Assembly (NCBI GenBank): GCA_902574355.1 | Contig: CACGNN010000003.1 | Span: 96,565 to 160,564, forward strand | Length of the DNA stretch: 64,000 bases | Source: an uncultured SAR86 cluster bacterium | GTDB taxonomy: Bacteria; Pseudomonadota; Gammaproteobacteria; Magnimaribacterales; Magnimaribacteraceae | Reading direction: 5' to 3' | Shown here: in pieces, positions 7,443-10,991 of the stretch | Position numbering within the stretch: the stretch's first letter is position 1 | How the letters are laid out: every line of letters begins with the position of its first letter | The notes under the pieces: model-generated | Database searches by the model: none | What the model was told of the DNA's origin: nothing | Seen by the model: the letters and a program-made list of their open reading frames with translations, nothing else | Position numbers and translations under genes: made by a program

Positions 7443-7685
7443 TTAATCTAACTTCTCTTCAAAGTCACAGACCATCTTAGCCTCAACAGATCCAACAACA
7501 GCCAAGTTTACTTTTGCACGACCTTCCATAGATCCAGAAACTAGACATTTTTCAAGACTTTCTTGAATAATCTCTCTAACGATCTGAGTTAACTCCTCAA
7601 CAGTTAAGTCGCTAACTGTTTTTTCCTCTGTTGATAAGATATTGAAGCTTACGAGTAAAATTGCACAAATTAATTTCTTTTTCAT
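7443..7685 (-). CDS. hypothetical secreted protein
   Basis: 80 aa ORF with N-terminal signal-like sequence. Confidence 0.5.
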   Translation of the reverse strand: MKKKLICAILLVSFNILSTEEKTVSDLTVEELTQIVREIIQESLEKCLVSGSMEGRAKVNLAVVGSVEAKMVCDFEEKLD

Positions 7686-9221: not shown

Positions 9222-9557
9222 TTAGTTCAAACGGTATTTGAAGTTTATTTGAAATTCATTGTTTTGTTCAAAATATTGATTATTGGCAAAATCATCTTTA
9301 GCAGGCTGTTTTAAGAAATCTATAGTAAATTTCCTTTCAACTGTCTCATTGATGAACTCAGCTTCTTCAGAATCATCACCGCTATTCATGACGAAATAGG
9401 CAATTAATCCTACTGCAACAATTGCGCCTGCAGCAGAACTACTTCCACCGTATCCACCACCATCATCACCTGAAGAAGGATTTTCACTTCCTCCATGATA
9501 ACTAGCCAGAGCCAGATTCGAAGTTATTGAGAACAATAATATAAATAAGTATTTCAT
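9222..9557 (-). CDS. small secreted Gly/Ser-rich hypothetical protein
   Basis: Signal peptide MKYLFILLFSITSNLALA, Gly/Ser-rich segment, TM-like segment, C-terminal FQINFKYRLN. Confidence 0.6.
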   Translation of the reverse strand: MKYLFILLFSITSNLALASYHGGSENPSSGDDGGGYGGSSSAAGAIVAVGLIAYFVMNSGDDSEEAEFINETVERKFTIDFLKQPAKDDFANNQYFEQNNEFQINFKYRLN

Positions 9558-9574
9558 AAATATTTCCTTATATT

Positions 9575-9690
9575 TGTCCTGAGCGTCTAAGTCCGTAACC
9601 GAAAACGTCAGTGCCCTTACGTTTCGTAGAACCTAGCAAAGCAGATTATTAAATTGAGCGGCAGCTAACACTGAATGTGTGCCCGTATTA
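9575..9690 (-). ncRNA. candidate structured 5' leader RNA
   Basis: Relatively GC-rich intergenic element. Stem CGAAAACGT(9600-9608)/ACGTTTCG(9619-9626); its loop TCAGTG (9608-9613) is complementary to CACTGA (9669-9674). TATAAT-like -10 on the minus strand just upstream. Confidence 0.4.
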
Positions 9691-9767
9691 TAAATTGTTC
9701 TTCAAATTATTAATATATGAATTTCACCTTCATGGAATTTTTTTGAAATAACAACCTATGATAATAT

Positions 9768-10991
9768 GTGATAAACAGTAACAATTACTTAATGCATAAA
9801 AAAGAACAGATACGCCTTCTAAAGGGGTTGATCCATCATTTAGACAATAAAACTAATATCGATGCAGGTGGCATAATACGAACTCCAGCTGACACTTATA
9901 CATCGGAAGAAAGATTCGATATGGAGTGGAATACTTTTTTTCAAGATTATCCTCAAATAGTAGGCATGTCAGGAGATCTACCTGGACCTGATACTTTTTT
10001 AACTACTGAGGATTTTGGTGTACCAGTCTTAGCCGTGAGAGATAGTAATGGTAAATTTAAGGCTTATGCTAATGTCTGTGCACATAGAGGTGTAACTGTC
10101 GAGGCTAACAAAAGAGGTGAAAAAACGAGATTTTCTTGTCCTTTTCATGGTTGGACTTTCAATAATGATGGGGAGCTCGTAGGTTATCCAAAAAAAGATC
10201 AATTCGGAGAAATAGATAAAGCATGTTACGGACTTAAAGAGTTGCCAGCCACTGAAAAATTTGGATTTCTTTGGGTCCATCCTTCTAGAGAGGGAACGAT
10301 TAATTTTGAAGAATTACTCGGAGAAGATTTAGTTAAAGAATTTGAATCTTGGAATTTTGAGAGTTTAGTTTTCGAACACCAAGAAGAATATGTCACTGAT
10401 ATGAATTGGAAATTGGCGATTGATACATTTGGCGAAACCTATCATTTTTCCGTTCTTCACAAAGATTCTTTGCACGAAGTATTCCATGGAAACTGTCAAA
10501 TGTTCGATAACTTTAATCGTAATGGAAGGTTAATATTGTGCAGAAGAGCTATAGATGAAATGAGAAAATTGCCAGAATCTGATTGGAATATCTGTGCTGG
10601 CACATTACCGGTATATTATTTATTTCCAAATATTATTTTTATGCCAACACAAGAAGGCGCCTTCTTAGTTCAAGAGTATCCCCTAGAAAATTCACCCCAT
10701 AAGAGTGTTTCTAAAATTTCATTTTATTTTTATCCTCATGTTTTAGAACATGTTAAACAGCTTGAGAAGCAAGGCATTAATGGAAAGGAACTGCTTCAAC
10801 AGCAATACAATGGATTTGCCTCAGTAATTAGAGATGAAGATTATGTTGCTGCAGCCTCATCTCATAAAGGTCTGAAATCAGGGAATATAGATTATTTAAC
10901 ATTTGGTAAAAATGAGCCTGCTCTTCATCACTATCACAATACATATCGTGAGGCTTTAGGCCTTCAATCTTTACCACTAGAAAAAGCTTAG
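9768..10991 (+). CDS. Rieske [2Fe-2S] aromatic-ring-hydroxylating oxygenase alpha-type protein
   Basis: CAHRGVTVEANKRGEKTRFSCPFHGW = CxH...CxxH Rieske motif. ATG at 9792 is an alternative start. Confidence 0.88.
   Translation: MINSNNYLMHKKEQIRLLKGLIHHLDNKTNIDAGGIIRTPADTYTSEERFDMEWNTFFQDYPQIVGMSGDLPGPDTFLTTEDFGVPVLAVRDSNGKFKAYANVCAHRGVTVEANKRGEKTRFSCPFHGWTFNNDGELVGYPKKDQFGEIDKACYGLKELPATEKFGFLWVHPSREGTINFEELLGEDLVKEFESWNFESLVFEHQEEYVTDMNWKLAIDTFGETYHFSVLHKDSLHEVFHGNCQMFDNFNRNGRLILCRRAIDEMRKLPESDWNICAGTLPVYYLFPNIIFMPTQEGAFLVQEYPLENSPHKSVSKISFYFYPHVLEHVKQLEKQGINGKELLQQQYNGFASVIRDEDYVAAASSHKGLKSGNIDYLTFGKNEPALHHYHNTYREALGLQSLPLEKA

Follow-up and report, generated by a model that had tools for sequence, protein, structure and literature searches.

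A structured leader RNA family of the SAR86 order, located upstream of genes for exported proteins including, in four genomes, proteorhodopsin

The window analysed here, a 64,000-nucleotide (64 kb) stretch of a contig from an uncultured SAR86 cluster bacterium, contains a divergent gap between the gene for a 111-residue Gly-rich protein and that for a Rieske-type ring-hydroxylating oxygenase. The first-pass annotation of this DNA had placed an orphan structured leader RNA in the gap, reading from the minus strand towards the smaller gene. The 210 bp gap, a minus-strand TATAAT, the proposed stem CGAAACGU/ACGUUUUCG and an upstream UCAGUG complementary to CACUGA are all present in the window sequence. 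The parts of the element, as defined by the comparisons described below, are as follows.

9558-9767: divergent gap of 210 bp between the 111-residue ORF and the oxygenase gene
9687-9692, minus strand: promoter -10 box TATAAT, read from the sequence and kept in six orthologues of the genus
near 9680, minus strand: predicted transcript start, from the -10 box TATAAT at 9692-9687
9572-9653, minus strand: conserved structured RNA motif, spanning the match to the covariance models (104.4 bits with R1, 65.2 bits with R3)
9642-9644, minus strand: 5' strand of helix P0, CUG, whose pairs with 9579-9581 covary, with 98.5% of cells forming a pair
9637-9641, minus strand: 5' strand of internal loop J1, CUUUG (YYUUG in the family), with UU and G almost invariant
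9630-9636, minus strand: 5' strand of helix P1; two-sided changes in seven of the eight pairs of P1
9600-9626, minus strand: P2 hairpin with a GGCA tetraloop at 9612-9615; two-sided changes in 11 of 11 pairs
9594-9599, minus strand: 3' strand of loop J2, GUUAC (UUAC in the family), a conserved column block
9587-9593, minus strand: 3' strand of P1, covarying
9582-9586, minus strand: 3' strand of J1, ACGCU (ACGCN in the family), with A, C, G and C almost invariant
9579-9581, minus strand: 3' strand of P0, CAG, covarying
9565-9569, minus strand: Shine-Dalgarno sequence AAGGA, 9 nt past P0, with the same geometry in relatives
9222-9557, minus strand: target gene c1, a 111-residue exported Gly-rich small membrane protein of the SYHGG family
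9768-10991, plus strand: Rieske-type ring-hydroxylating oxygenase gene, on the other flank of the gap

A DNA search of 61 relatives located orthologues of the element in five additional genomes within the genus, the most diverged of which (G003) keeps UCUGCUUUGCUA, GGGCAC, CGGUUAC and UUAGACGCUCAGG despite changed stems. From five orthologues within the genus a covariance model (R1) was built; its matches included another copy in the genome of the window (G000:C1:244140-244218) as well as members in other families of the order. After successive retrainings (R2 and R3), the motif was found in 82 and then 87 of 203 genomes of the SAR86 order (Magnimaribacterales), the latter amounting to ∼43% of genomes and 14 of 22 genera, with the best genome-wide matches reaching E = 1e-16. 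An even sample of the class yielded matches in two of 369 genomes and an even sample of the phylum in one of 299, every one from the SAR86 order. When all GTDB representatives were scanned with a pattern, 46 stretches were returned, 34 of them SAR86 records; the 12 others (Acinetobacter and further taxa) reach no more than 14.4 bits with the model and are attributed to chance, and the same type of scan gave no match among viral contigs. On this comparative evidence, the element belongs to a structured leader family that appears confined to the SAR86 order.

The consensus architecture is a single irregular hairpin consisting of P0 (3-4 bp), the internal loop J1 (YYUUG on the 5' side and ACGCNC on the 3' side), P1 (7 bp), the loop J2 (CUUG or CUAC opposite UUAC), P2 (7-11 bp of freely varying sequence) and a GRCA tetraloop. 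G-C and Y-G pairs are probable inside J1. Among 89 distinct sequences, pairing is seen in 89.9% of cells (63.3% when shuffled and at most 42.2% when slid) and two-sided changes occur in 20 of 22 pairs; covariation scores 0.648, versus 0.219 after shuffling and no more than 0.148 after sliding. These figures are to be read with caution, as the alignment had been made to fit the structure. The same structure already stands above the controls in a near-ungapped alignment of five sequences. One additional P0 pair (alignment columns 12-97) is supported by several pair types, and a further outer pair beyond P0 is not kept in about half of the sequences. The consensus helices contain 152 G-U cells versus 41 A-C cells, which identifies the minus strand as the RNA strand. 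Near-invariant bases are concentrated in J1 and in the tetraloop, where G, C and A hardly vary. In five variants (L099, L249, L250, L243 and L244) the P2 arm is shortened and GRCA is lost, and J1 is retained, marking J1 as the core of the motif.

The window sequence folded alone is unremarkable (z = -0.17, no better than shuffles), so that the decision was left to comparison only; across 31 family members the folding energy is modestly low (mean z of -1.7). The shuffle-like fold of the window is what would be expected if the element were a product of chance or of sequence-only conservation, with no functional RNA. We give this reading almost no credence: covariation, covariance-model matches across genera and recurrence with unrelated genes all oppose it, and the compensatory changes already refute it. 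Because orthologues, covariation and genome-wide covariance-model matches place the family beyond chance, we regard it as nearly certain, as far as sequence comparison can tell, that the RNA family is real.

The first-pass annotation had proposed an Rfam scan together with a search for conservation and covariation in relatives. None of the 4227 families of Rfam 15 matched the element: at gathering thresholds there was no match in the whole window or in 20 related loci, a relaxed search of the window locus gave none at E values up to 5, and relaxed searches of two relatives gave merely sub-threshold matches to unrelated families. With Rfam matches absent and with orthologues and covariation found, the description of an orphan structured leader lacking a known riboswitch consensus is borne out. 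Among openly readable papers, none describing this leader RNA was found.

The hairpin-loop pseudoknot that had been proposed between UCAGUG and CACUGA fared differently. Complementarity over all six positions occurs only in the window and one other locus (L011), the other genus orthologues tested having four or five of six with several competing sites. The predicted -10 box usually ends 8-15 nt ahead of P0 across the family, and transcripts of most members would therefore lack the upstream partner. Moreover, what had been read as a CACUGA loop includes CACU, the 3' arm of P2; since this segment is helical and the conserved loop is GRCA, the pseudoknot is not a conserved feature of the family.

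The 91 copies comprise 26 upstream of c1, four upstream of proteorhodopsin, 13 that stand alone and 48 that precede mostly c0, or other genes. As in the window, c1 encodes a Gly-rich 'SYHGG' small membrane protein, and c0 encodes a lipoprotein with a Gly tract (CGGGG...) and weak Ig-like similarity. The motif is kept with each gene across at least five different neighbourhoods for c1, at least four for c0 and four for proteorhodopsin. At the R3 threshold, it is present in 27 of 32 genomes with c1 and 45 of 53 with c0, several of the absences corresponding to degenerate copies or contig ends. Overall, 72 of 85 genomes with either gene carry the motif versus 15 of 118 others (odds ratio 38, P = 4e-26, a statistic that ignores the relatedness of the genomes). 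Proteorhodopsin genes with the motif occur only in G021, G024, G027 and G033, none of which has c0 or c1; a general association was rejected, as 50 other proteorhodopsin upstream regions are without it. No biosynthetic or transport genes were found among the targets. The motif usually lies at the predicted 5' end of the mRNA, and its end is separated from the start codon by a median of 19 nt (26 minus a 7-nt pad; in a few leaders the listed ATG lies about 12 nt before a better start).

Several observations concern the target proteins and their surroundings. Full-length c0 and c1 never occur in one genome (53 and 32 genomes, no overlap), as if the two were alternatives. In another genus (L238 and L239, from G054 and G084), c1 has a different but likewise conserved leader, with AAUCGUrAUUUGrUCCUAUUGCyGCGAUU replacing the motif. 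The window also encodes, at 7443-7685, an 80-residue protein of cluster c6 that is found near c1 in a distant genus as well, in a different (RecA/ferredoxin) neighbourhood, which suggests that c6 is functionally linked to c1.

Copies without a downstream target form a separate group. The second copy in the window's genome falls within a candidate stand-alone RNA gene (L020 at about 1400-1579, equivalent to G000:C1 about 244040-244218; orthologues in L017-L024, L051 and L059), which in the window's genus is flanked by a nitroreductase gene and a convergent gene of FKBP type. After the motif come first a hairpin whose loop is CANGGANG and then a terminator-like hairpin. The region is near-identical in seven genomes and divergent in G012 and G018, each of which has two tandem motifs. 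A small-peptide gene was considered for this region and rejected, because G012 does not retain the start of the ORF. Tandem copies are found in five genomes, about 70-80 nt apart (L036, L041 and L048, as well as L059 and L023); P0 is imperfect in the upstream unit of the first three of these loci. We infer that the stand-alone RNA may serve as a decoy.

The reading that we favour, with moderate confidence, is that a trans-acting factor, probably a protein, docks on the leader and controls translation or mRNA stability. J1, aided by the arm comprising J2 and GRCA, would be recognized by this factor, most likely an RNA-binding protein, which, when bound at the 5' end of the mRNA, beside the ribosome site, could alter translation initiation or mRNA lifetime. 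The effect would fall on one major envelope protein, and stand-alone copies would act as competitors for the factor. Support comes from the persistence of the motif with the unrelated c1, c0 and proteorhodopsin genes amid differing neighbours, from the short, fixed spacing to the start codon, from the position of the -10 box shortly ahead of P0, from the retention of J1 when P2 is shortened and from the tandem and stand-alone copies. As counterpoints, single irregular hairpins can be small-molecule aptamers, tandem copies are known for riboswitches and the stand-alone candidate of G004 is missing its 3' half.

A rival reading is a new riboswitch class, in which J1, J2 and GRCA would form an aptamer whose ligand is a small molecule or an ion and binding would alter downstream ribosome access; the targets suggest a light-linked or redox-linked ligand, or copper. 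Conserved loop bases between covarying helices, amounting to an aptamer-like domain in a 5' leader, and the tandem copies agree with such a switch. Copper is hinted at by the proteins themselves. In most c1 proteins the N-terminus left by predicted signal cleavage would be x-x-His (SYH, DYH or YGH), which is of a Cu/Ni-binding type; L078 and L095 have lost this His. The C-terminal domain of the c0 lipoprotein (for example, L113 and L130) contains a His and a C-x2-H-x2-M, both invariant, in the arrangement of blue-copper ligands. However, c0 was not accepted as a copper protein, the conserved pattern being accompanied by a low-confidence model and no significant PDB fold match, and proteorhodopsin does not suit copper as a ligand. 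An expression platform was likewise not found. There is no room for a terminator between the motif and the start codon, and the predicted accessibility of the Shine-Dalgarno sequence in 65 leaders (0.34 with P0 free versus 0.33 with P0 formed, by thermodynamic prediction only) reveals no consistent effect, so that a Shine-Dalgarno switch was rejected. Metabolic and transporter genes are lacking among the targets, and the motif is limited to one order at about one leader per genome. The absence of terminator space and of a conserved ribosome-site switch, together with the unrelated exported targets, leads us to prefer a docking site over a metabolite riboswitch; the riboswitch reading of the first-pass annotation is thus slightly disfavoured, and we consider it possible but rather unlikely.

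The motif follows strong TTGACA-type promoters and is placed at the predicted 5' end or close to it, a position that would also fit a partner-free 5'-terminal stabilizer or translation enhancer for very abundant messages, and proteorhodopsin is an abundant product. We think this improbable: stable helices would suffice for such a role, with no need for near-invariant internal-loop and tetraloop bases, the folding energies noted above are only modestly low and the stand-alone copies would be left unexplained.

SAR86 bacteria are among the most abundant in the surface ocean; their genomes are small and streamlined, and little is known of their gene regulation. The tie of the family to one exported protein at a time in most genomes offers a handle on this regulation, and the orphan RNA can be offered for ligand or partner hunting. 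Extending the docking-site reading, we tentatively picture a lineage-specific RNA signal that is read by a sensor, is buffered by decoys in some species and sets the level of one key surface or light-harvesting protein, including proteorhodopsin; if this rather doubtful scheme were true, proteorhodopsin would be under post-transcriptional control by a new class of RNA sensor.

Several known systems invite comparison. Pseudoknotted aptamers of the preQ1 and SAM-II type are likewise short leaders directly ahead of the Shine-Dalgarno sequence, whereas the SAR86 leader has no conserved pseudoknot. The ompA 5' UTR, the stem-loops of which slow decay, also places a structured 5' end on an envelope-protein mRNA, but the SAR86 leader has conserved internal loops and a tetraloop. 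Ribosomal-protein leaders and the targets of CsrA/RsmA with CsrB-type RNAs similarly have a compact hairpin by the ribosome site, and the stand-alone RNAs that carry the leader motif in some SAR86 genomes recall CsrB; unlike those of the former, the SAR86 targets are not ribosomal proteins. The genome encodes CsrA. The leader does not fit binding by CsrA/RsmA, the sign of which is ANGGA in hairpin loops, since its tetraloop is GRCA; the CANGGANG loop is restricted to the 3' portion of the stand-alone RNA and is absent from the leader. With orphan riboswitch candidates and other structured cis-regulatory RNAs discovered through comparative genomics (Weinberg et al., 2010; PMC2864571), the leader shares its 5' position, covarying helices, conserved loops and particular downstream genes; it differs in targeting exported proteins rather than metabolism, in its restriction to SAR86 and in having no match in Rfam 15. 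The SAR86 leader is a well supported new class within the structured cis-regulatory leaders.
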